Assembly: GCF_900109285.1 (NCBI RefSeq)
Contig: NZ_FNZQ01000001.1
Span: 525,001 to 589,000 of the forward strand
Source of the DNA: Jannaschia helgolandensis
GTDB lineage: Bacteria > Pseudomonadota > Alphaproteobacteria > Rhodobacterales > Rhodobacteraceae
Direction: 5' to 3'
Length of the DNA stretch: 64,000 nt
Positions 11,908 through 51,089 of this stretch are shown one piece after another; position 1 is the first letter of the stretch, and every line of letters starts with the position of its first letter. The position numbers were made by a program, and so were the translations under genes. The notes beneath the pieces were generated by a model. It did no database searches and was not told the origin of the DNA. It worked only from the letters and a program-made list of their open reading frames with translations.

Positions 11908-13067
11908 CCGAGAACTGGCAAAGAGCCGGGTTCGGTCTTTATATTCATTGGCCATTCTGCGCGGCGAAGTGCCCCTATTGCGACTTTAACAGTCACGTCA
12001 CGACCATGGTCGACCAGGCAAGGTGGCGCGACGCGCTGCTCCGGGATCTGGCCCACTGGGCCGGTAAAACGGAAGGCCGCGTCCTGACCTCGATTTTCTT
12101 CGGGGGTGGAACGCCCTCAATGATGCCGCCCGATACAGTCGCCGCGCTGATCGACGCTGCGCGGCGACATTGGACCCCTGCGAACGATCTGGAAATCACG
12201 CTGGAGGCAAACCCCACATCTGTCGATGCCGCGCGGTTTGCGGGATATGTGGATGGAGGCGTAAATCGATTTTCTGTCGGGCTTCAGGCGTTGAAGAACG
12301 ATGACCTGCGCGCTCTGGGCCGCCTCCATACTGTGGCCGAGGGACGGCGCGCCTTCGACATTGCCCGCGACCTGACCGATCGAGTGTCCTTCGACCTGAT
12401 CTATGCGCGGCAAGGTCAGGCGCTTGCCGATTGGCAAACTGAATTGACGGCTGCCCTGAAGATCGCGGGTGAACACCTTTCGCTTTATCAGCTGACGATC
12501 GAGGACGGCACGGCCTTTTCTGCCCGGTATGCCGCCGGGGGACTTACTGGATTGCCCGACGAAGACCTTTCCGTCGATTTATATAATCTGACGCAGGATC
12601 TCTGCGGTGCCGCTGGTTTGCCGAGATACGAGACCTCCAATCATTCTCGACCGGGTCGGGAATGTCGGCACAATCTGATCTATTGGCGAGGGGGCGACTG
12701 GGTCGGCATCGGGCCAGGCGCACATGGGCGCCTGTCTTTGTTCGACGGCAGATGGTCGACCGTGGCCGAGAAAATGCCGCAGGCCTGGCTGGTGCAATCC
12801 GAAAAGGTCGGGACCGGCAACAAAGCGATGAATATCCTTCCGCAGACCGATATTTCCGATGAATATGTCCTGATGGGCCTGCGGACGCGGGAGGGTATGG
12901 ATCTGGCCCACCTGGACCGCATCGGCGGACGCCTCGACCCGGCAGGACTGGCGGAAATGGTCGGGGATGGCCATTTGCAGCTGCACGACGGATGGCTCAA
13001 AACGACCGAAAGCGGTGCTTTGCTGTTGAACGCCGTCTTACGGAAGATCGTCGCGGTCGATCCCTGA
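11904..13067 (+). CDS. hemW: Heme chaperone HemW (radical SAM, HemN-like)
   Basis: 387 residues. The radical-SAM cluster ligands are C19, C23 and C26 in CAAKCPYCDF. The sequence then follows the HemN/HemW family (FFGGGTPSMM, EANPTSVD, NRFSVGLQAL, RYETSNHS). At this length, and lacking the N-terminal extension of oxygen-independent coproporphyrinogen oxidase HemN, HemW is the better call; HemW binds heme and is thought to insert it into respiratory proteins. It overlaps rdgB by 4 nt. Its last 30 bp are also the 3' end of the convergent parB. Confidence 0.9.
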   Translation: MTENWQRAGFGLYIHWPFCAAKCPYCDFNSHVTTMVDQARWRDALLRDLAHWAGKTEGRVLTSIFFGGGTPSMMPPDTVAALIDAARRHWTPANDLEITLEANPTSVDAARFAGYVDGGVNRFSVGLQALKNDDLRALGRLHTVAEGRRAFDIARDLTDRVSFDLIYARQGQALADWQTELTAALKIAGEHLSLYQLTIEDGTAFSARYAAGGLTGLPDEDLSVDLYNLTQDLCGAAGLPRYETSNHSRPGRECRHNLIYWRGGDWVGIGPGAHGRLSLFDGRWSTVAEKMPQAWLVQSEKVGTGNKAMNILPQTDISDEYVLMGLRTREGMDLAHLDRIGGRLDPAGLAEMVGDGHLQLHDGWLKTTESGALLLNAVLRKIVAVDP

Positions 13068-13949
13068 CGACAGCAAGGCGCAAAGCCTGTCCAGTTGCTC
13101 CAAGGACCGATAGCGGATTGAAAGGCGGCCGCCCTCTTCACCACTCGCATGATCGATGGACACGCCGAGACCCAACGCAGCAGCAAGATCACCTTCCAGG
13201 GCGCGCGTATCCGCGTCTTTCTCCGCCGGGGATGCAGCGGTGGCTCGCTTGCCCTTTGGCTCGGACGCACCGCGCGCAAGACGTTCGGTCTCGCGGACGG
13301 AAAGACCGCCATTCACCACCTGGCGGGCCAAAGCTTCCGGATTCGGCGCGTTGATCAGGGCGCGGGCATGCCCAACGGATAATGTACCTTGCCGCAGAAG
13401 ATCTTGAACTGCGTCCGGTAGTTTGAGAAGGCGCATCAGATTTGCGATGTGACTGCGCGATTTGCCAAGAACCGTGCCTAGCTGTTCCTGCGTGTGGCCG
13501 AACTTCTCCATTAGCTGCCGAAAGCCTAACGCCTCCTCGATTGCGTTCAGATCGGCCCGCTGAATGTTCTCTATGATAGCGATTTCCAGCACTTCAATGT
13601 CGTCCAGATCCCGCTGGATGACAGGAACCTCGTGCAGCCCGGCCCGCTGCGCCGCCCGCCAGCGTCGCTCTCCCGCAACAATCTGGTAATCGCCGGACAC
13701 TTTAGGATCAGGGCGAACGATCAGCGGTTGGAGAATGCCTTTTTGGGAAATCGAGGCAGCCAGGTCAGACAGATCTTCCTCATCAAACGTGCGCCGAGGC
13801 TGATCCGGATTCGGATGTATTTTTTCGATCGGGACGAAAGCTTCGCTCGATATGGTTTGCATGGCCATATCCGAAGCCGAAACGCCAACGTCAGCCATCA
13901 ATGCCGACAAGCCACGCCGCATTGCTCGTTTTTGTGGTGCGTCAGACAT
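13038..13949 (-). CDS. parB: Chromosome partitioning protein ParB (parS-binding CTPase)
   Basis: 303 residues. ParB binds parS, uses CTP to slide along DNA, and drives origin segregation with ParA. Visible parts: a basic N-terminus (RRGLSALMAD) that in ParB contacts ParA, the IHPNPDQPRR segment, the CTP-binding motif GERRWRA at 93-99, a helix-turn-helix region (LGTVLGKSRSHIANLMRLL) and a C-terminal dimerisation domain. The start is placed at 13949, where the ATG overlaps the parA stop as ATGTCTGA with GAGGGG upstream; a start 15 codons earlier would run through parA. Two perfect parS sites are 1.3 and 3.2 kb away. Confidence 0.95.
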   Translation of the reverse strand: MSDAPQKRAMRRGLSALMADVGVSASDMAMQTISSEAFVPIEKIHPNPDQPRRTFDEEDLSDLAASISQKGILQPLIVRPDPKVSGDYQIVAGERRWRAAQRAGLHEVPVIQRDLDDIEVLEIAIIENIQRADLNAIEEALGFRQLMEKFGHTQEQLGTVLGKSRSHIANLMRLLKLPDAVQDLLRQGTLSVGHARALINAPNPEALARQVVNGGLSVRETERLARGASEPKGKRATAASPAEKDADTRALEGDLAAALGLGVSIDHASGEEGGRLSIRYRSLEQLDRLCALLSSGIDRDDLP

Positions 13950-14730
13950 CAAGCCCCTCAACCATTTGATTTTTATTAATAAGTTCTGACGCAAGACTCC
14001 GATAGGCTATTGCGCCACGACTTGTGGGGTCATAGTTCAACACTGGCATGGCATAGCTAGGCGCCTCACTCAGACGAACATTTCGCGGAATTTTAGTCTC
14101 GAAAACCAGATCACCAAGATTCTGTCGCGCATCTTCCTCGACTTGGAGACAAAGATTGTTGCGACGGTCAAACATCGTCAGAACTATTCCCTCCAACCGC
14201 AGATCAGCGTTTGCTGTGCTTCTGACCTCCCGAACTGTCAGCAATAGCTGTGACAGACCTTCCAGAGCGAAGAACTCCGCCTGTAAAGGGACGAGCACGG
14301 TGTCAGAAGCCACAAAAGCATTTAAAGTAAGTAGGTTAAGGGACGGCGGACAATCGACGAGAATATAGTCGTACGGAGCGTCACGCAGCCGCAGCGCTTT
14401 GCGAAGGTGCATCACACGTCTGGCACTATTCATGAGCTCTGTATCGGCGGAGCTCAGATCCATCGTTGCTGGAATAATCCATAGATGTTCGACACTTGTC
14501 TCAAGTGCGATGTCGAGAGGTGACGCTTCGCCTAAAATTAGGTCATAGGTACTTTGTCCACGAACCGACTTTGAAACGCCTAGCCCAGTGGACGCATTTC
14601 CTTGCGGGTCAAGGTCGACAAGCAGAACGCGATGGCCGCGCATAGCGAGCGCGGCTCCCAGATTTATCGCAGTTGTCGTCTTGCCGACACCACCCTTCTG
14701 GTTCGCGATACTAATGATTCGCGCCTTCAT
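13942..14730 (-). CDS. parA: Chromosome partitioning ATPase ParA
   Basis: 262 residues, a ParA/Soj deviant-Walker ATPase: KGGVGKTT at 12-19 with the signature lysine, LVDLDPQGN and DCPPSLNLLTLNA. It lacks the long N-terminal DNA-binding extension of plasmid RepA/ParA proteins, which fits the chromosomal type. ATP-bound dimers coat the nucleoid and pull ParB-parS complexes. It lies 1 nt downstream of rsmG and overlaps parB by 8 nt. It is more AT-rich than parB and the genes beyond, as are rsmG, mnmG and much of mnmE. Confidence 0.96.
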   Translation of the reverse strand: MKARIISIANQKGGVGKTTTAINLGAALAMRGHRVLLVDLDPQGNASTGLGVSKSVRGQSTYDLILGEASPLDIALETSVEHLWIIPATMDLSSADTELMNSARRVMHLRKALRLRDAPYDYILVDCPPSLNLLTLNAFVASDTVLVPLQAEFFALEGLSQLLLTVREVRSTANADLRLEGIVLTMFDRRNNLCLQVEEDARQNLGDLVFETKIPRNVRLSEAPSYAMPVLNYDPTSRGAIAYRSLASELINKNQMVEGLDV

Positions 14731-14731
14731 A

Positions 14732-15334
14732 TCATGCTCGATTCAGGTTTTGGGCATGCAGAATGACGGACTCTTCATCGGTCTGACTATTCAGCACATC
14801 CAAATCATAGACCCATTCTTCGCGAGCCGCCAGAACCTCTTCCCGCCATGTTCGGCCCTTGGGGAATAGATAATGGCAGCTCTCATGTGCATGCGGCTTC
14901 GCAAGATTAAAAAGTGTGCTCAATGATGCCACCGCGCGTGCGCTAATGACATGAGCATTGATTGGCGGAATTCGTTCGATGCGTCCGTTGATAATTCTCA
15001 CATTGAGGCCCAGCTCTCTCCGGACAGTATGCAGGAAGGCACACTTCCGAGCATCGCTTTCAACCAAAACGACATCAATCTGATGCCCCATGCATGCGGC
15101 AACCACGAGTCCGGGAAAGCCGCCCCCACTACCAATGTCAAGCCATGGTCCCGTCTCGGGTCGGTGGGCGTTAGCAATTTCGAGAGAATCTTCAATATGA
15201 CGCCTACGAAGATCTCGCAGACTTGCTTTGGAGACTATGTTGATGCGTGGCGACCATTTTCGAACCAGGTTTTCAAGTTGCTCAAGAACATCCTGTGTTT
15301 CACGTGAAACAATTTGCTGTCTATGATCCGTCAC
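14732..15334 (-). CDS. rsmG: 16S rRNA (guanine-527-N7) methyltransferase RsmG
   Basis: 200 residues. RsmG methylates G527 in the 530 loop of 16S rRNA. The SAM-binding motif [12 protein letters not shown] is at about 65-76; the HIEDSLE and SARAVASL segments are typical. The start is GTG at 15334, overlapping the mnmG stop (GTGA). Codons 8-13 (IVSRET) are encoded by a perfect parS site. It forms the conserved mnmE-mnmG-rsmG-parA-parB series. Confidence 0.95.
15296..15311. other. parS: parS site 1 (ParB nucleation site), inside rsmG
   Basis: The 16-bp palindrome TGTTTCACGTGAAACA, an exact match to the universal bacterial parS consensus. It lies within codons 8-13 of rsmG, about 1.3 kb from parB. 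It is the expected loading site for ParB clamps. Confidence 0.95.
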
Positions 15335-17208
15335 GCGGAACGGCGTTCTTGTCGACGCACGGCCGCAAGAATCGCCACAGTGGCCGCAGGTGTCATCCCT
15401 TCGATCCGACCGGCCTGAGCTACAGTTTCTGGTCGCACGTTAAGAAGCTTTCCGAGTAGTTCTGTCGATAGGCCGTTGATGGCTGCATAGTCCATATCAC
15501 ACGGAATCAAAACGCCTTCTCCAGCCTTCAGAGCTTGAATTTCTCGATTTTGACGCACAGTATAATTTGCATAAAGCGCATCTCTCGCCACTTGAAGCTT
15601 AGTTTTAGAACTATGCTCATCCAGTTCCGGGACGATATTTTCAAGCAGCGGCAATAGATCAGAACCAAGCCCCAGAGCTTCGTATCCTGACTTTGCTGGG
15701 CCGCCCGATCGAATATTGAACCCCGCGGCAGACAATCTTGCACTGGAAATGGATTTTTCTTTCAGTACATTAGCGCAATGGTCTATCGCATCACGCTTCT
15801 GCGAAAAATGCGCCCAGCGGCGATCGGAAATGCAGCCTATCTCACGACCAAATGGCGTAAGGCGTTGATCCGCATTATCAGCACGCAGCGAGAGTCGGTA
15901 TTCTGCACGTGAAGTGAACATCCGATATGGCTCGGATACGCCTTTTGTCGTGAGATCATCGATCATGACACCGATATAACTTTCCGACCGAGAAAAAGTT
16001 ACACCAGATTTACCGGAAGCTTGCAGAGCAGCGTTCAGACCAGCAACGAGACCCTGCGCGGCTGCCTCCTCATATCCAGTCGTTCCATTAATCTGACCCG
16101 CCAGGTAAAGCCCATCCATTGACCGCATCATCAATCCTGACGTCAGGCAACGTGGATCAACGTAATCATATTCAATTGCATAACCGACTTGCGAAATCTC
16201 CGCTCGTTCAAGGCCCTCAATTGTATGAACGTAATCTTGCTGAACATCTTCGGGAAGAGACGTCGAAATACCGTTAGGATAGACCAGATCTGTCGAAAGT
16301 CCTTCTGGCTCGAGAAAAATCTGATGAGATGACTTTTCAGAAAACCGGACGATTTTATCCTCGATCGATGGACAATAACGAGGACCGGTTCCATCGATCA
16401 TTCCACCATACATCGCTGATTTTTCAAGATTGTCGCGGATGATATCGTGGGTTCGCTCGTTTGTGTGAGTGATGGCGCAAGAAATCTGCTGTACAAATGG
16501 CCTGTCGTGCAGAAAAGAAAACATTTCCGGATCGTCATCGCCATCCTGGCGTGCCAACACATCCCATCGGATTGTACTTCCCCGAAGACGCGGCGGCGTC
16601 CCGGTTTTCAAACGGCCCAATTCAATCCCAAGATCAATGATTTGATCCGCAAGGCGCGTCGATGCCTTGGCATTCATACGGCCACCTATGATCTTACGAT
16701 CCCCAATATGGATAAGGCCTTTGAGAAATGTGCCGGTCGTCAGAATCAATGCATCCGACGTTATCCTTGCGCCATTCGCTAAAATGACCCCACGCGCCTT
16801 TTTCCCATCTTCAAATATTAGCGCCGTCACTTCACCTTCGACAAATGTCAGGTTTGGGTGTGACTCGATTTCTTCGCGCATGACACTTTGATACAATGCT
16901 CGGTCCGCCTGGACCCGCGGACCTTGCACCGCGGGACCCTTGCGACGATTCAAAAGTCGGAATTGGATCGCCGCGCGGTCGGCAACGCGTCCCATCACAC
17001 CATCCATAGCGTCGATTTCACGAACCAGGTGACCCTTGCCTAGCCCACCAATTGCCGGGTTGCAGGACATTATTCCCAGGTCATCAACTTTGAACGACAC
17101 CAGTGCCACTGAACAGCCCATACGCGCGCCGACGCAAGCAGCCTCGCATCCTGCGTGACCGCCTCCAATGACGACGATGTCATAGTCCTGATGTTTCACG
17201 TGAAACAA
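15331..17208 (-). CDS. mnmG: tRNA uridine-5-carboxymethylaminomethyl modification enzyme MnmG (GidA)
   Basis: 625 residues. With MnmE it installs cmnm5 on the wobble uridine of certain tRNAs; it binds FAD. The Rossmann motif GGGHAG is at 15-20, and [21 protein letters not shown]-type sequence and the C-terminal helical domain (ARIEGMTP-like region) are present. The annotated start is TTG at 17208, 2 nt after the mnmE stop, giving MFHVKHQ; these first codons are a perfect parS. A GTG at codon 4 is an alternative start. Base composition is clearly lower in GC than genes outside the parA-mnmE block. Confidence 0.96.
17192..17207. other. parS: parS site 2 (ParB nucleation site), at the mnmG start
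   Basis: A second exact TGTTTCACGTGAAACA, overlapping the first codons of mnmG (TTG TTT CAC GTG AAA CAT). It is 1.9 kb from site 1, about 3.2 kb from parB and about 3.2 kb from the proposed oriC. ParB binding here could also affect mnmG initiation or transcription (inference). Confidence 0.95.
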
Positions 17209-17210
17209 CC

Positions 17211-18506
17211 TTATTTACCTATGCAGAAAGAAGAAAAGACTTCATCTAAAATTTCGTCAATATCAACCCCGCCGATAATTTCGGATAGTGCACTTGCGGA
17301 ATCTCGCAAGGACAATGACACCAATTCAGGTTCAGCATCAGACATCTTTGCCTGTACTTCGACCATGATCGAGAGTGCCACATCAAGTGACGCCCGATCG
17401 CGCTCGCGGGATATTAATCCGGCATCAGGAATCCGTTCAGAAAGTATGGTGCCTATGCACAAAAGCAGCCCCGGTATACCCGCTCCGGTACTGACAGATA
17501 TAGCGTTGGCATCGCCATTCAGATCACCCTTGGATCGGATCACTATGTCCTGATCCAAGACAGGTACATCCCAGGTCGGAGGAGTTGCTTGCTCATACAG
17601 GAAAATGCGCAAATCTGCAGATTTTGCGCGAGTGATAGCCCTGTTTACGCCAATCAGTTCAACTTCATCTGATGTTTCTCTAAGCCCGGCCGTATCTAAC
17701 AGCGTCACAGGCAAACCATTGATATCACACCTAACTTCTACAATATCACGTGTTGTTCCGGCTACTGCAGTCACGATAGCAGCATCTGAATTGCTCAGGG
17801 CATTCAAAAGTGACGATTTTCCAGCATTTGGCTCTCCCACCAATGCCACCTCGAATCCTGTCTTCAATCGCGCCACCGATCTCACAGTTTCAAGTTCGGC
17901 TGAAACGCTCTCAATCACTCCGGAAAGAAGCATCGAAACTTCACGGGAAACATCCTCAGGTACATCCTCGTCAGCAAAGTCGATCGTCGCTTCAACCAGA
18001 GCGATGGCCCGCAACAAATCTCGTCGCCACCCTTCGACCCGACGTGATACTTCGCCGTCCAGAACACGCATAGCATGACGTCGCTGCCCTTCCGTCTCCG
18101 CATCAATGACATCCGCAAGACCTTGAACTTGGGTCAGGTCCAGCCTTCCATTCATAAGGGCACGGCGCGTGAATTCTCCCGGTTCCGCCATGCGAAGCGG
18201 TGGCATCCGCTCCAACTCCATCAGAACCGCGCGTACGACGGCGACACTCCCATGAAGATGCAGTTCGATGACATCTTCGCCGGTAAAGCTTGCACCACGT
18301 TCAAAAAACAGGACAAGCGCCTGATCCAGAATATCGCCCTCGGAATCTCGTAATGTAGCGAGGCGGCTGGACCTTGGTACAGGTGGTGACACGCCCATTG
18401 CCGTCAGCGCAGCGCAGCATTCCGGCCCGGAAATCCGCACAATCGCGACTCCCGCCTTGCCCTGCGCCGTGGCCAGGGCAAAGATCGTATCTCCGGCCCC
18501 GGTCAC
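17211..18506 (-). CDS. mnmE: tRNA modification GTPase MnmE (TrmE)
   Basis: 431 residues. A potassium-activated GTPase that works with MnmG on wobble uridines. It has an N-terminal tetrahydrofolate-binding domain ([34 protein letters not shown]) and a helical domain. The G domain is inserted with G1 GEPNAGKSS at 224-232, the G2/K-loop region TAVAGTTRD and G3 DTAG. It ends with the catalytic C-terminal motif CIGK. The start is GTG at 18506, 6 nt after the rho stop. Confidence 0.96.
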
Positions 18507-18512
18507 CTTGGA

Positions 18513-19835
18513 TCAGGAGTTCATAGAGTCGAAGAAATCCGCGTTGGTCTTCGTCTGTTTGAATTTTCCGATGAGAAATTCAATCGCATCAGTCGTGCCC
18601 ATCGGATTCAGAATCCGCCTCAACACGAAGGTTTTCTGCAGGTTCTTGGGATCGACCAGCAGCTCTTCTTTTCGTGTGCCCGATTTCAGGATGTCCATCG
18701 CCGGGAAAACACGCTTGTCGGCGACCTTGCGGTCCAGAACGATCTCGCTGTTGCCGGTGCCCTTGAATTCTTCGAAGATCACTTCGTCCATCCGGCTGCC
18801 TGTATCAATCAGTGCTGTTGCGATGATCGTCAGCGATCCGCCTTCTTCGATGTTCCGCGCCGCGCCGAAAAACCGTTTCGGCCGCTGCAGGGCATTCGCA
18901 TCGACACCACCCGTCAACACCTTGCCCGAAGATGGTACAACCGTGTTAAAAGCCCGGCCCAACCGAGTGATCGAATCCAGCAGAATCACCACATCCCGCT
19001 TGTGTTCGACCAGACGCTTGGCTTTCTCGATCACCATTTCACTGACCGCGACATGCCGCGTTGCCGGTTCGTCGAACGTCGAGGAGATGACTTCCCCCTT
19101 CACCGACCGTTGCATGTCTGTGACTTCCTCGGGCCGTTCGTCGATCAGCAGAACCATCAGATAACACTCCGGATGGTTCGTTTCGATCGACTTTGCGATG
19201 TTCTGCAACAGCACGGTCTTACCTGTCCGGGGTGGCGCAACTATCAGAGAACGCTGACCTTTTCCGATAGGCGCAACCAGGTCAATGATCCGGGCGGATC
19301 GGTCTTTGATGGTAGGGTCCTCGATTTCCATCTGGAACCGCTCATCGGGATATAGCGGTGTCAGGTTATCAAAGCTGACCTTGTGCTTGGCCATTTCCGG
19401 ATCGGCAAAGTTGATCTTCACCACTTTGGTCAGGGCGAAATATCGTTCATTCTCGTCGGGCGCCTGGATGATGCCATCGACAGTATCGCCAGTTCGAAGC
19501 GAATGCTTCCGGATTACGTCAGGCGACACGTAAATATCGTCCGGGCCTGACAGATAATTTGCCTCGGGCGACCGCAGGAAGCCGAAGCCGTCCTGCAAGA
19601 CTTCCAGCACACCTTCACCGGAAATTTCCCATCCTTCGTCTGCCCGTTCCCGCAGGATCGAGAACATCATCTCACCCTTGCGCATAGTCGAGGCGTTTTC
19701 AATCTCAAGCTCTTCCGCCATATCGACCAGCGCCTTGGGTGACATAGCTTTGAGGTCACGCAGGTTCAGTTGCTCGGGCGGTCCGTCGTTATCGTCTTCG
19801 GGACGGGTATCGTCGAGGATGTCGTCATCGCGCAT
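18513..19835 (-). CDS. rho: Transcription termination factor Rho
   Basis: 440 residues with the start used here. Rho is a hexameric RNA helicase that ends transcription. The N-terminal RNA-binding fold (about 23-140) has [12 protein letters not shown] at 83-94. The ATPase part has Walker A APPRTGKT at about 200-207 and the Q/R-loop region [25 protein letters not shown]. The ATG at 19835 has GGAG 8 nt upstream, while the longer frame (12 more codons) has no site. An acidic N-terminal extension ([17 protein letters not shown]) precedes the usual start. It belongs to the leftward hemJ-rho-mnmE-mnmG set; the 130-bp leader has no clear feature. Confidence 0.95.
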
Positions 19836-19965
19836 GGCAAAGCTCCGCAGCGGAAGGGCATAGCGACCCAAAGGGTGCAGCCGTATTGGTCTTCGGGAAA
19901 TCGGTAACCGGACCAGGACGGTCCACCGTTGGCAGCCAGTTAGGCATCTGATCTCCCCAAGTCAA

Positions 19966-20403
19966 TCAGAACGGTCGTACGATAACCGAAATAACGATGA
20001 TGATCATCAGAACCGTCGGTACTTCGTTCATCAACCGGTAACTCCGCCCGGTGGCCGCTGCCGTCCCCGCCGCCAACGCCTTGCGCTGCCCCCCACACCA
20101 CATGTGAAATATGGTCATCCCGATTATGCTGATCGCCTTGATCCAGGGCCAGACCTCGCCCCAATCGACGCCGCCCATTCCGACGATGGACAGGCCGAAG
20201 ACCCATGTCGCAATCATCGCCGGAGTCATTATCGCCTGCAGCAGACGGCGTTCCATCACCTCCAGCACCGGGATCATCTGCGGCACTGCGTCCCGTTGTT
20301 CGACATGATAGACGAACAATCTCGGTAGATAGAAAATCCCCGCCATCCAGGCGATCACCGAAATGACATGCCCCGCCTTCAACCACAGATACAGATCGTT
20401 CAT
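19966..20403 (-). CDS. hemJ: Protoporphyrinogen IX oxidase HemJ
   Basis: 145 residues, a small integral membrane protein with four hydrophobic segments. The N-terminal LYLWLKAGHVISVIAWMAG, with a histidine in the first helix, is characteristic of HemJ (formerly UPF0093). HemJ oxidises protoporphyrinogen IX in the penultimate step of heme synthesis in many alphaproteobacteria that lack HemG and HemY. It is the first leftward gene from the proposed origin, next to rho. Heme made here would serve the cytochromes encoded later in the window. Confidence 0.93.
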   Translation of the reverse strand: MNDLYLWLKAGHVISVIAWMAGIFYLPRLFVYHVEQRDAVPQMIPVLEVMERRLLQAIMTPAMIATWVFGLSIVGMGGVDWGEVWPWIKAISIIGMTIFHMWCGGQRKALAAGTAAATGRSYRLMNEVPTVLMIIIVISVIVRPF

Positions 20404-20798
20404 CGGTCCCGCCTTTCGCCTTACTTCCTAACAATAAGAAAGAAAGAAAAAAGGATGATGTTGTATGTAGGGGCAGTGGATATCGGGGATTAAATTCTCC
20501 GCACAACACAGTCCACAGATCGGTATTCCGATCTGCGGCGACAGACAATCCGGTGGATAAGCTGTCAAGTTTGCAACCATGCATGTGAGTGGCGGTGTGT
20601 ATCGTTTTGGGGAGATCCCAGAACATCGCAGGGGAGGAATCGTCGGGCCTCACAGCTCGGGCCAACCGACAGGTCGCGTGCAAAAGATCTCGACAGTGGC
20701 GGAGAAACCGGCGACTTGTCCTCAGACAGTGCAGGGTCCAATCCTGTCACAGGGTTACCGACAGGTTTATCCGCCCCTTTGTCCCCGGATCTATCCCC
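20404..20798. other. oriC: Candidate chromosomal replication origin (oriC) between hemJ and maf
   Basis: A 395-bp region between divergent hemJ and maf with no plausible gene. It holds an AT-rich purine tract (about 20421-20453); DnaA-box-like 9-mers GGTGGATAA at 20552-20560 (one mismatch to TGTGGATAA), AGTGGATAT at 20475-20483 and TTATCCGCC at 20767-20775 (two mismatches each); a perfect inverted repeat at 20516-20535; and a GANTC methylation site at 20637-20641. The gene order on both sides (rho-mnmE-mnmG-rsmG-parA-parB one way, maf-aroE-coaE-dnaQ the other) is that found around alphaproteobacterial origins, and parS sites lie within 6 kb. The assignment is inference. Confidence 0.6.
20516..20535. 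repeat. Perfect inverted repeat in the candidate origin
   Basis: CAGATCGG-TATT-CCGATCTG: 8-bp arms with a 4-nt spacer. It sits between two DnaA-box-like sites. It could be a protein-binding site or a hairpin in a hemJ transcript leader. Confidence 0.6.
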
Positions 20799-21380
20799 GT
20801 GCTGATTCTCGCTTCCACCTCCCGCACCCGTCAGAATCTGCTGCGCAATGCCGCGATTCCTTTCGAGTCGCGCCCGCCGCGCGTGGATGAGGTGGCCGTG
20901 AAGGACGCGCTTCTGGCCGACGGCCAACCACCCCGGAACATTGCCGATGCCCTGGCCGAGATGAAGGCGCTCAGGATTCGCGCGCCGGGCTTCATCCTTG
21001 GCTGCGATCAGGTTCTGGACCATGACGGTGCGCTGATGTCCAAGCCTGCATCGCCTCAGGAAGCCAAAGCGCAACTGACGATGCTTTCAGGTAAAACGCA
21101 CAACCTCTTGTCCGCAGCCGTGATCGTCGAAGATGGCGAGCCGATCTGGCGGCATGTCGCCACTGTCAGGATGACAATGCGAAAGGTGACGCCGGGATAT
21201 GTCACGGGCTATGTCGAGCGAAACTGGGACACGATCCGAAATTCCGCTGGAAGCTACGCACTCGAAGGTGAAGGAGCGCGGCTGTTCCACCGGGTCGACG
21301 GTGATTATTTCGCGGTGCTGGGATTGCCGCTGCTGCCACTGCTCGATTTCCTGATCACACGTGGTAAACTCGACGCATGA
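20799..21380 (+). CDS. maf: Maf-family nucleotide pyrophosphatase
   Basis: About 193 residues. Maf proteins hydrolyse (d)TTP, UTP or modified nucleotides and were first linked to septum inhibition. The N-terminal LILASTSRTRQNLLRNA and the LGCDQVLDHDG (catalytic Asp) and ALEGEGARLFHRVDGDYFAVLGLP segments are diagnostic. The open frame extends upstream to 20589, but that part is origin-like non-coding DNA. GTG at 20799 is the only usual start codon next to the conserved N-terminus, and it has no clear ribosome-binding site. The stop overlaps the aroE start (ATGA). Confidence 0.88.
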   Translation: MLILASTSRTRQNLLRNAAIPFESRPPRVDEVAVKDALLADGQPPRNIADALAEMKALRIRAPGFILGCDQVLDHDGALMSKPASPQEAKAQLTMLSGKTHNLLSAAVIVEDGEPIWRHVATVRMTMRKVTPGYVTGYVERNWDTIRNSAGSYALEGEGARLFHRVDGDYFAVLGLPLLPLLDFLITRGKLDA

Positions 21381-22192
21381 CATGTCTGGCCGGGGTCATC
21401 GGCGACCCGATTGCTCAAAGCCGCTCGCCTCGTCTGCATGGCCATTGGTTGCGTCGGTATGAAATCGACGGACATTATGTGCCTCTGCACGTAACGCGCG
21501 ACATGTTGAGCCAGACGCTGGAGACACTTCCGAAACTGGGGTTTCAGGGGTTGAACGTGACCATTCCCCATAAGGAAGCGGTGTTTCGCCTGGCCAACGA
21601 TGTCACCGAGCGGGCCCGTGAGGTCGAGGCGGCGAATACGCTGACCTTCCGTGACGGGCGCATTCTTGCGGATAATACCGATGGCATCGGGTTCATTGCC
21701 AATCTGCGACAACAGGCCCCGGTGTGGCAGGTGAATGCGCCTGCACTGGTATTGGGGGCAGGGGGCGCAGCGCGGGGAATCATTGCCGCACTGCTGAACG
21801 AAGGTGTGCCGCGGGTGACCATCGTAAACCGGACGGCCGCGCGGGCAGAAACGCTGGCGGATTTGTTCGACCGACGGGTGCGGACCATGCCGTGGGAGAT
21901 GGCCAGCCCGGCGCTGGCGGATCACGGGTTGCTGGTAAACACCACCAGCCTGGGAATGACTGGCCAGCCGCCTTTGGTGCTCGACCTGGCTGCACTGCAC
22001 GCCGACACCACCGTGTCCGATATCGTCTACACGCCTCTCATGACGCCGCTGTTGAAAGATGCTCAGGACCGTGGCGCCACTGTGGTCGAGGGTCTGGGGA
22101 TGCTGCTGCACCAGGCCGTTCCAGGATTCACGGAATGGTTTGGCGTCGTGCCAGATGTGGATGACGAGTTGCGTGCTGCGGTGCTGGCGTGA
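21377..22192 (+). CDS. aroE: Shikimate dehydrogenase
   Basis: 271 residues. It reduces 3-dehydroshikimate to shikimate with NADPH. Key residues are visible: the SRSP substrate-binding region near 15-18, Lys66 in NVTIPHKEA, Asp102 in NTDGIGF and the dinucleotide motif GAGGAARG at 127-134. It overlaps maf (ATGA) and coaE (GTGA) by 4 nt each. aroC of the same pathway lies elsewhere in the window at 36.5 kb. Confidence 0.96.
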   Translation: MTCLAGVIGDPIAQSRSPRLHGHWLRRYEIDGHYVPLHVTRDMLSQTLETLPKLGFQGLNVTIPHKEAVFRLANDVTERAREVEAANTLTFRDGRILADNTDGIGFIANLRQQAPVWQVNAPALVLGAGGAARGIIAALLNEGVPRVTIVNRTAARAETLADLFDRRVRTMPWEMASPALADHGLLVNTTSLGMTGQPPLVLDLAALHADTTVSDIVYTPLMTPLLKDAQDRGATVVEGLGMLLHQAVPGFTEWFGVVPDVDDELRAAVLA

Positions 22193-22755
22193 TCCTTGGC
22201 CTGACCGGCTCCATCGGGATGGGAAAATCCACGACGGCGCAGATGTTTCGCGATCTTGGTGTGCCGGTATGGGACGCTGATGCGACCGTGCATCGTCTCT
22301 ATGCAAAGGGTGGGGCGGCGGTGGAACCGATCCTGGCCCTGTTTCCCGATGCTTTGCGTGACGGTGCCATCGACCGCACCGTGATGCGCGCCATCGTCGC
22401 CGCCGATACGGGCGCCCTGACGAAGATCGAGGCGGTTGTTCACCCTCTTGTCGCCCAGGACCGCGCGGAATTCCTGAAGACCCAGGCACCGCTGCTTGTC
22501 CTCGATATCCCGCTCTTGTTCGAGACCGGCGCCGATGCGACCGTTGATCGCATCGCCGTGGTCACTGTCCCGCCGGAAATACAGCGCGCTCGTGTGCTGG
22601 AACGGGGGACGATGACGGCTTCAGAATTTGACGCGATCCTGGCGCGGCAGGTGCCGGATGCTGACAAACGGGCGCGTGCCGATTACATCATTCCGACGAC
22701 TGACATGCAGACGGCGCGCGATGCCGTCACCGATATCGTAGCGGAGCTGACATGA
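22189..22755 (+). CDS. coaE: Dephospho-CoA kinase
   Basis: 188 residues. It phosphorylates dephospho-CoA in the last step of CoA synthesis. The P-loop GSIGMGKST is at 7-15, and the family segments DADATVHRLY and VLDIPLLFETG follow. The start is GTG at 22189 overlapping the aroE stop, and the stop overlaps dnaQ (ATGA). Confidence 0.95.
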   Translation: MILGLTGSIGMGKSTTAQMFRDLGVPVWDADATVHRLYAKGGAAVEPILALFPDALRDGAIDRTVMRAIVAADTGALTKIEAVVHPLVAQDRAEFLKTQAPLLVLDIPLLFETGADATVDRIAVVTVPPEIQRARVLERGTMTASEFDAILARQVPDADKRARADYIIPTTDMQTARDAVTDIVAELT

Positions 22756-23438
22756 GGGAAATCGTCCTCGACACCGAAACCACCGGGTTCGAACCTGAAT
22801 CGGGTGATCGCATCGTTGAAATCGGTGCGATCGAGCTGATCAACCACGTTCGCACCGGCAAGGAGTATCACCAATATATCAACCCCGAGCGGTCCATGCC
22901 CGACGGCGCGTTTCAGGTGCATGGGCTGGGGGATGATTTCCTGAAGGATTTTCCCGTCTTCAAGCAGGTCGGGCAGGCGTTCATAGATTTTATCGGTGAC
23001 GCCAGGCTGGTCATTCATAACGCCGCATTCGACATGAAATTCCTGAACGCAGAACTGGACGGCATGGGCCTGCCACGCCTGCCCTATGATCGGGCCATCG
23101 ACACTCTGGCCATCGCACGGTCGAAATTTCCCGGCTCGCCTGCATCTCTGGATGCTTTGTGCCGCCGGTTCGGGGTCGATAACGCGGCACGCACAAAACA
23201 CGGCGCTTTGCTCGACAGCGAAATTCTTGCGGAAGTCTATCTGGAACTGATCGGCGGACGGCAACCGACGATGTCGCTGGTCAGCCAGCAGGAAGGGCAG
23301 TCCACGGCACAGGGCAACTGGACCCCACGCCCCCGGCCGGAGCCGCTTCCATCGCGTCTGACCGAAGAAGAAGCCGCCGCCCATGCCGCATTTGTCGAAA
23401 CACTGGGCGACGGCGCGATCTGGAAGACCGGGGGATAG
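22752..23438 (+). CDS. dnaQ: DNA polymerase III epsilon subunit (3'-5' proofreading exonuclease)
   Basis: 228 residues. The proofreading subunit bound to the alpha polymerase. The three exonuclease motifs are clear: DTETTG at 7-12 (D7, E9), HNAAFDMKFL, and the C-terminal HGALLDSEILAEVY. The tail after residue 175 is Gln/Pro-rich and would carry the alpha-binding segment. It is the last of four coupled genes reading away from the proposed origin and stops 1 nt before the convergent secB stop. Confidence 0.95.
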   Translation: MREIVLDTETTGFEPESGDRIVEIGAIELINHVRTGKEYHQYINPERSMPDGAFQVHGLGDDFLKDFPVFKQVGQAFIDFIGDARLVIHNAAFDMKFLNAELDGMGLPRLPYDRAIDTLAIARSKFPGSPASLDALCRRFGVDNAARTKHGALLDSEILAEVYLELIGGRQPTMSLVSQQEGQSTAQGNWTPRPRPEPLPSRLTEEEAAAHAAFVETLGDGAIWKTGG

Positions 23439-34613: not shown

Positions 34614-34655
34614 CTCTCACTCCCATGGCGACGGACGGGGGTAGGAGCATGAGAC

Positions 34656-34744
34656 ATCGCACCTTCCCTCCGCCGGTCTTAACCGGTTCAGGTTCAACGG
34701 GTCCGCATGCGCATCTCAGCCGGTGAAGGCCCCCCGAGGTGGGT
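34656..34744 (-). ncRNA. TPP (THI-box) riboswitch upstream of thiBPQ
   Basis: Read on the minus strand, the element has the two conserved blocks of the TPP aptamer: CTGAGA (plus-strand 34714-34719) and ACCTGAACCGGTTAAGACCG followed by GCGGAGGGAA (about 34666-34693). The closing P1 stem pairs 34736-34741 with 34660-34665. It ends about 45 bp before the thiB start, so ligand binding probably controls translation or early termination of thiBPQ. Confidence 0.95.
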
Positions 34745-34789
34745 TCTGGATAGCGCCCTTGCCCTGTGGGGTCCAGTGAAGGATTTCAG

Positions 34790-51012: not shown

Positions 51013-51089
51013 CGGGCTGTGGCGCAGCCTGGTAGCGCATCTGCTTCGGGAGCAGGGGGTCGGAGGTTCGAATCCTCTCAGCCCGACCA
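51013..51089 (+). tRNA. tRNA-Pro (anticodon CGG)
   Basis: 77 nt with an encoded CCA end. Acceptor stem CGGGCTG/CAGCCCG, D arm GCGCAGCCTGGTAGCGC, anticodon stem TCTGC/GCAGG around the loop TTCGGGA, and T arm GGAGG-TTCGAAT-CCTCT. The anticodon CGG reads CCG, a frequent proline codon in this GC-rich DNA. The sequence is close to E. coli proK. Confidence 0.97.

Follow-up and report, generated by a model that had tools for sequence, protein, structure and literature searches.

Organization of the hemJ-maf locus

The window analysed here is a 64,000-nucleotide stretch of the Jannaschia helgolandensis genome (C5:525001-589000; 3.56 Mb in 14 contigs). At window positions 20404-20798 it contains a 395-bp gap, to which no strand is assigned and which is gene-free when the left boundary gene is read from an ATG at 20403 (minus strand) and the right one from a GTG at 20799 (plus strand). 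The left boundary gene (19966-20403, minus strand) encodes a Pfam UPF0093 protein and is presumably hemJ, while the right one, maf (20799-21380, plus strand), encodes a Maf domain. An alternative, longer ORF on the maf side (20589-21380, also GTG-started) would enter the gap; the start at 20799 is preferred because the onset of the Pfam Maf domain lies near 20799 and because alignments within the genus begin at the residue encoded there in 16 of 16 cases. The minus-strand genes to the left are, moving outward, hemJ, rho (18513-19871, Pfam Rho domains), mnmE, mnmG, rsmG, parA and parB, and the plus-strand genes to the right are maf followed by aroE, coaE and a dnaQ-type exonuclease gene (21377-23438), all of them transcribed away from the gap. 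The ORF starts, the ORF strands and the limit of the Maf domain thus bear out the initial annotation, which described a 395-bp gene-free gap between hemJ and maf with genes pointing away from it on both sides.

The same annotation placed parS sites and parAB close to the gap, and this also held. The products of parA (13942-14730, minus strand) and parB (13038-13994, minus strand; these are ORF limits, and the true start is possibly internal) are recognized by Pfam as AAA_31/CbiA and as ParB_N, HTH_ParB and ParB_C, respectively. The sequence TGTTTCACGTGAAACA, which we take to be the parS consensus, occurs in perfect form at 15296-15311 and 17192-17207 (no strand assigned), 5.1 and 3.2 kb from the gap, and these are the only two parS sites with at most one mismatch in the whole genome, so that the gap has the nearby parS expected of an oriC. 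The rsmG-mnmG-mnmE stretch in which they lie has a reduced G+C content, falling to 0.50-0.52 per kb at 14001-18000, compared with 0.57-0.61 on the left (12-14 kb) and 0.55-0.61 on the right (18-24 kb); a survey of the family (PMC6699656) used a local GC minimum as a criterion for oriC.

Within the gap, the 40-mer of lowest G+C content (25%) lies at 20429-20468. Read on the plus strand, it joins a 20-nt AT-rich purine tract (20436-20455), which had been recognized earlier as a purine run, to a GATGATG motif (20454-20460); it is the proposed DNA unwinding element, and it stands next to a pair of box-like sites, as such an element would in an oriC. A similar core of purine tract, GATGATG and GTAGG is found in the gaps of the genus, of its sister genera and of other Rhodobacteraceae. 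From the hemJ side, the layout consists of the purine tract with GATGATG, a GTAGGGGC linker, two abutting minus-strand sites (20475-20483 and 20484-20492) and then dispersed weak sites up to the maf start.

This arrangement resembles the basal unwinding system, composed of a box, a spacer and DnaA-trios (PMC8287927), in that the box pair adjoins a purine-rich tract. A trio pattern, TAG-TAG-GAA-AAA, does read away from the first box after a 15-nt spacer and satisfies the rule of at least three NAN trios no more than 16 nt from a box, but 704 of 2000 shuffles do likewise, so the match is not evidence. The inverted repeat (8+4+8) and GANTC site that had been listed as origin features are both present, the former perfect at 20516-20535 and the latter once, at 20637; their proposed significance did not stand. 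The repeat is part of a hairpin of 11 pairs and a 4-nt loop (20513-20538), which scores as terminator-like on the minus strand and was not seen, by eye, in the 15 aligned genus relatives. GANTC, the CcrM site, averages 1.25 per gap in 16 genus gaps vs 1.47 in shuffled ones. Because GANTC is at chance level and the hairpin is not seen in the genus relatives, both are dropped from the oriC argument.

Conservation of the gap among relatives

The hemJ and maf genes diverge across a gap of 382-454 bp, at the equivalent position, in all 80 named-record loci compared, so synteny agrees with the earlier proposal of an origin here. These loci are the top 80 of 373 when ranked by similarity of hemJ, which biases the set towards relatives. 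Box counts were made in a separate set of 30 loci, 26 of which have both hemJ and maf in the stretch; 24 of the 26, those with a gap below 700 bp, were used, which leaves out the four loci that lack maf in the stretch and two with gaps above 1.2 kb. Gap ends outside the genus were extrapolated from alignments, with an error of up to a few codons. The 24 gaps contain 40 sites with at most one mismatch to the canonical box TTATCCACA, vs 1.7 expected, and 132 with at most two, vs 24.0 expected.

Within the genus, hemJ lies beside the gap in 16 of 20 genomes. The other four (G004, G007, G013 and G015, loci L178-L181) have weak or no matches to hemJ, and in these rho faces maf across a gap with a similar core, showing that the gap can persist after loss of a boundary gene.

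DnaA-box-like sites in the gap

The gap contains six 9-mers with at most two mismatches to TTATCCACA, where mononucleotide shuffling of its sequence leads one to expect 0.99. The best of these, TTATCCACC (20552-20560, minus strand), has one mismatch, and the others have two: ATATCCACT (20475-20483, minus strand), which forms the first site of the abutting pair, and, on the plus strand, TTCTCCGCA (20495-20503), TTGTCCTCA (20716-20724), which lies within a block, GACTTGTCCTC, common to many genus gaps, TTACCGACA (20755-20763) and TTATCCGCC (20767-20775). The claim of three DnaA-box-like 9-mers, one of them with a single mismatch, is thereby borne out, with twice as many sites counted at this threshold. 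The second site of the pair, TAATCCCCG (20484-20492, minus strand; CGGGGA on the plus strand), adjoins the AT-rich tract and is common to a clade whose DnaA has Tyr at position 422 (see below). A genus profile, built from 15 gaps and excluding the window's own, adds TTCTCCGCC (20698-20706, minus strand) and TTGTCCCCG (20779-20787, plus strand).

Across the whole window, 9-mers with at most two mismatches occur at chance level (95 vs 90.75 expected), so it is their clustering in the gap that is unusual. Box clusters were compared in 364 kb, comprising the window and 15 sampled stretches (~10% of the genome), where the highest count elsewhere is five per 395 bp; the gap, with six, is the maximum of the sample, and hence has the box cluster in a non-coding region that is expected of an oriC. 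By the genus-trained profile, the gap has 12 matches above 5 bits, compared with an average of 2.7 per sampled window; 12 or more matches occur in 0.17% of sampled windows, with at most 13 in any of them, so the gap scores high but has equals elsewhere. Exact copies of TTATCCACA number four in the whole genome and none in the gap.

Strand polarity and the probable origin

The gap passes most of the sequence tests for an alphaproteobacterial oriC, and we put the probability that it is the chromosomal replication origin of this Jannaschia species at roughly 0.93. The proposal of a chromosomal origin between hemJ and maf, made in the initial annotation, is supported by synteny, parS, the enrichment of boxes in relatives and a switch in strand polarity near the gap. 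From the anatomy, synteny, site enrichment, parS location and nearby polarity switch that can be read directly in the DNA, we infer DnaA binding, melting, initiation and segregation at the gap, in the following way. DnaA, encoded 177 kb away, would bind the abutting weak pair at 20475-20492 and the other weak boxes that extend as far as the start of maf; its cooperative assembly would open the purine tract within 20429-20468; helicases would be loaded and two forks would depart along the transcription directions of the flanking genes; and ParB, bound at the parS sites 3-5 kb left of the gap, would separate the new origins.

An origin beside dnaA, as in many bacteria, has to be considered since the dnaA domain lies on the same contig (C5:722 kb, to the right of the gap); the hemJ-maf gap would then serve only as the regulatory region of two divergent genes, which need two promoters. 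Scanning 20300-20900 for the sigma-70 consensus gave no promoter, a result of little weight for or against because 0.3 was expected by chance and other promoter types lie outside the scan. The composition of the dnaA region argues against such an origin, in that the 3.5 kb around the dnaA domain contain no box with at most one mismatch and at most three per 395 bp with at most two, and the parS sites lie near the gap.

Strand polarity points the same way. The octamer GGGNAGGG is presumably a KOPS-type motif, and its meaning is likewise assumed here. On the window's own contig, 24 forward and 74 reverse copies lie left of the gap, and 47 and 15, respectively, lie on its right side as far as 948 kb. 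In the part from the gap to dnaA the count is 20 forward and 7 reverse, which is of the right-hand type, and a model with one switch favours the gap over dnaA by 11 log-likelihood units. (An earlier count from the forward strand alone, superseded by this both-strand count, had its best switch at 474.5 kb, with the gap 3.2 and dnaA 7.6 log units below it.) Comparable evidence comes from a congener, G014, whose genome is one contig of 3.32 Mb, with the homologous gap at ~1.63 Mb and dnaA at 2.09 Mb, and which was sampled as 20 evenly spaced stretches (166-kb spacing). GC skew there is negative in eight of ten stretches left of the gap and positive in eight of ten right of it (means ~-0.016 and ~+0.020), the two negative stretches on the right sit just right of dnaA, and KOPS counts change from 10 forward and 34 reverse to 45 and 10. 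Both measures switch between 1.534 and 1.680 Mb, an interval that includes the homologous gap and excludes dnaA; between the two, all three stretches have positive skew and the KOPS count is 14 forward and 8 reverse. An origin beside dnaA is thus regarded as extremely unlikely.

The polarity data also bear on whether the origin is near the gap but outside it, for instance displaced leftward by 20-30 kb. The KOPS counts are fitted best by a switch at C5:516.6-522.2 kb, which lies shortly before the start of the window and 23-29 kb left of the gap; the gap itself scores 4.8 log units lower and falls outside the 2-unit interval (454.4-533.6 kb). In addition, GC skew is net positive over the first 14 kb of the window, where KOPS number three forward and none reverse, contrary to what is expected for an oriC in the gap. 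KOPS polarity is coarse, however, and is based on few sites (four forward and none reverse from 516.5 kb to the gap), while gene orientation, parS, box density and a conserved non-coding gap with a purine/box core all indicate the gap itself. An origin at such a displaced position is considered very unlikely.

This KOPS switch to the left and the weak GC skew of the genome's own speak against the exact placement of oriC in the gap. The presence of a single box with at most one mismatch, a profile score that other sampled windows reach and the absence of TTAA-N7-TTAA from the genus gaps also count against the oriC reading. The initial annotation had predicted a GC-skew minimum at the locus, and the part of this check that was carried out gave a divided result. 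The cumulative minimum within the window falls in the 2-kb bin that contains the gap (20001-22000) and the switch in G014 agrees, but the minimum is shallow and the skew of the own contig is weak, with means of ~-0.020 in nine stretches to the left and ~-0.005 in six to the right, so that the right side is not positive.

Altered boxes and DnaA residues in Jannaschia

The placement of this gap is ordinary among relatives; its start-site signals and DnaA, by contrast, appear to have diverged jointly in this group. Boxes with at most one mismatch (canonical-like boxes) average 0.75 per gap in 16 Jannaschia gaps vs 2.74 in 73 others, a statistic that ignores kinship, and the heptamer ATCCACA occurs three times in 20 Jannaschia gaps vs 108 times in 72 others (the 72 omit L183 and eight Jannaschia loci whose genomes were already in the G set, and the 73 include L183). 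An expectation-maximization search, which skipped the first 70 nt and used a fixed prior of three sites per gap, returned a motif near GTTNTCC[C/A]C[C/A]G in the 16 genus gaps and GTTATCCACAG in the 72 others; a version with a free site number was rejected since it collapsed onto the purine tract in the genus set.

The change is evident in the box beside the AT-rich tract, where the plus strand has CGGGGA in all 16 genus gaps, in all four genus genomes that lack hemJ (three counted by script and one, L180, by reading) and in four of four gaps of the sisters (Litoreibacter and Thalassobacter stenotrophicus). CGGGGA is present at the core of two of 68 other gaps, and 38 of the 68 have [TC]GTGGA there. 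The four sister gaps keep 1, 3, 3 and 3 canonical-like boxes.

Changes are also found in domain IV of DnaA. For reference, structure 1j1v is taken to be from E. coli; structure 3pvp, presumably from M. tuberculosis, has Tyr at position 439 as well. Residue numbers are those of E. coli, taken from PMC5043019 and an alignment to 1j1v. Tyr occupies the positions of both E. coli Leu422 and His439 in 20 of 20 genus genomes; in 20 other genomes compared, Tyr422 is absent and Tyr439 is confined to G038. According to the list of base-specific contacts in PMC5043019 (residues 399, 423, 432-435 and 438-439), position 439 contacts bases and position 422 adjoins one that does, so the base-contact region of Jannaschia DnaA is altered. 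The genomes behind 60 of the 72 non-Jannaschia loci were also searched for DnaA, with matches in 30 of 30 and 28 of 30, from which 30 and 27 genomes were read (G098, a weak match, was left out). Tyr422 with His439 is present in three sister genomes and in a fourth, L089, whose DnaA was predicted from its core before being read, and the remaining named-locus genomes (27 + 26 = 53) have Leu422. The CGGGGA core is therefore found in 24 of 24 genomes with Tyr422 vs two of 53 with Leu422 (L093 and L106). As a separate observation, L264, from the same genome as L112, encodes a second DnaA-like C-terminal domain, with TVWKAIKM vs TVMHGVKR in the other copy.

A DnaA tree of 61 of the 70 rows (G038, G052, G057 and six others were left out, and the second set of 27 genomes, L070 and L095 among them, is also not in it) places Tyr422 at a single origin with moderate support (87/74), and the Jannaschia rows with Tyr422 and Tyr439 form one clade (100/99). 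One tentative interpretation, to which we give somewhat less than even odds, is that DnaA and oriC changed recognition together in the clade of Litoreibacter, Thalassobacter stenotrophicus and Jannaschia, in two steps. The first would have combined Leu422Tyr with a change of the box beside the AT-rich tract from TAATCCACA-like to TAATCCCCG-like; the second, confined to Jannaschia, would have combined His439Tyr with the loss of most remaining canonical boxes. His439Tyr by itself was rejected as an explanation for the missing boxes: G038, L070 and L095 combine Tyr439 with Leu422, and the latter two keep three and two canonical-like boxes. As one clade represents one evolutionary event, the association is suggestive but short of proof.

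Alternatively, the boxes of Jannaschia may have drifted towards G+C-rich bases under relaxed selection, with no co-evolution of DnaA, a possibility that we place near even odds. Genus gaps have a G+C content of 0.57 vs 0.49 in others, the box changes are mostly from A to C or G, a single evolutionary event is involved, and L093 and L106 combine the CGGGGA core with Leu422, so drift or relaxed constraint could account for part of the association between Tyr422 and CGGGGA. On the other hand, 32 other gaps with a G+C content of at least 0.5 average 2.44 canonical-like boxes while five genus gaps below 0.56 average 0.8, and a linear fit that includes G+C still assigns the genus -1.75 boxes (this fit, too, ignores kinship). 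Drift also fits less well with an altered box that is kept rather than degraded in each of the 24 genomes with Tyr422, and with DnaA changes of which one is at a base-contacting position and the other beside one.

If co-divergence of DnaA and its boxes proves true, it would represent a recent, traceable change in the DNA code of a bacterial initiator, and comparing sister genera in the ancestral, intermediate and derived states would make it possible to ask how an essential initiator and its origin change recognition without losing replication. Among the literature matches listed on DnaA, oriC and Rhodobacteraceae, no mention of a box change in Jannaschia was found in the titles and the openings of the abstracts.

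Comparison with known origins

The nearest precedent for a paired change of boxes and DnaA domain IV is in the Epsilonproteobacteria, in which the boxes (core TTCAC) and residues 435, 438 and 439 differ (PMC5043019). Other bases and residues are involved there, and the DnaA-box interaction was assayed, whereas the Jannaschia case is known from sequence alone.

The Caulobacter crescentus Cori lies between hemE and a COG1806 gene and is tabulated as 404 bp (PMC1914354, PMC4468827). The Jannaschia gap is like it in being an alphaproteobacterial gap of ~400 bp with parS within 8 kb, an AT-rich stretch and weak rather than perfect boxes, but it is not of the Cori type in its boundary genes (hemJ and maf rather than hemE and COG1806) or in CtrA sites, since TTAA-N7-TTAA is present in none of 16 genus gaps (and in five of 72 others). 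The G-boxes of Caulobacter carry a T to G change, which differs from the changes seen in Jannaschia.

Within the Rhodobacteraceae, the family to which Jannaschia belongs, oriCs were predicted with Ori-Finder in 101 closed genomes by the GC-disparity minimum, a local GC minimum and nearness to parAB, and eight strains were left without a settled oriC because over-represented boxes and/or differences in composition were lacking (PMC6699656); neither maf nor hemE is mentioned in the main text of that survey. In contrast to its reliance on composition and classical boxes, a boundary rule, by which maf flanks the gap at one end and either hemJ or rho at the opposite end, combined with the purine/box core could serve as a finder for Rhodobacteraceae origins that lack classical boxes.

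Elsewhere in the window, a TPP riboswitch (68.4 bits) lies at 34648-34746 on the minus strand, and a tRNA gene lies at 51013-51086 on the plus strand.
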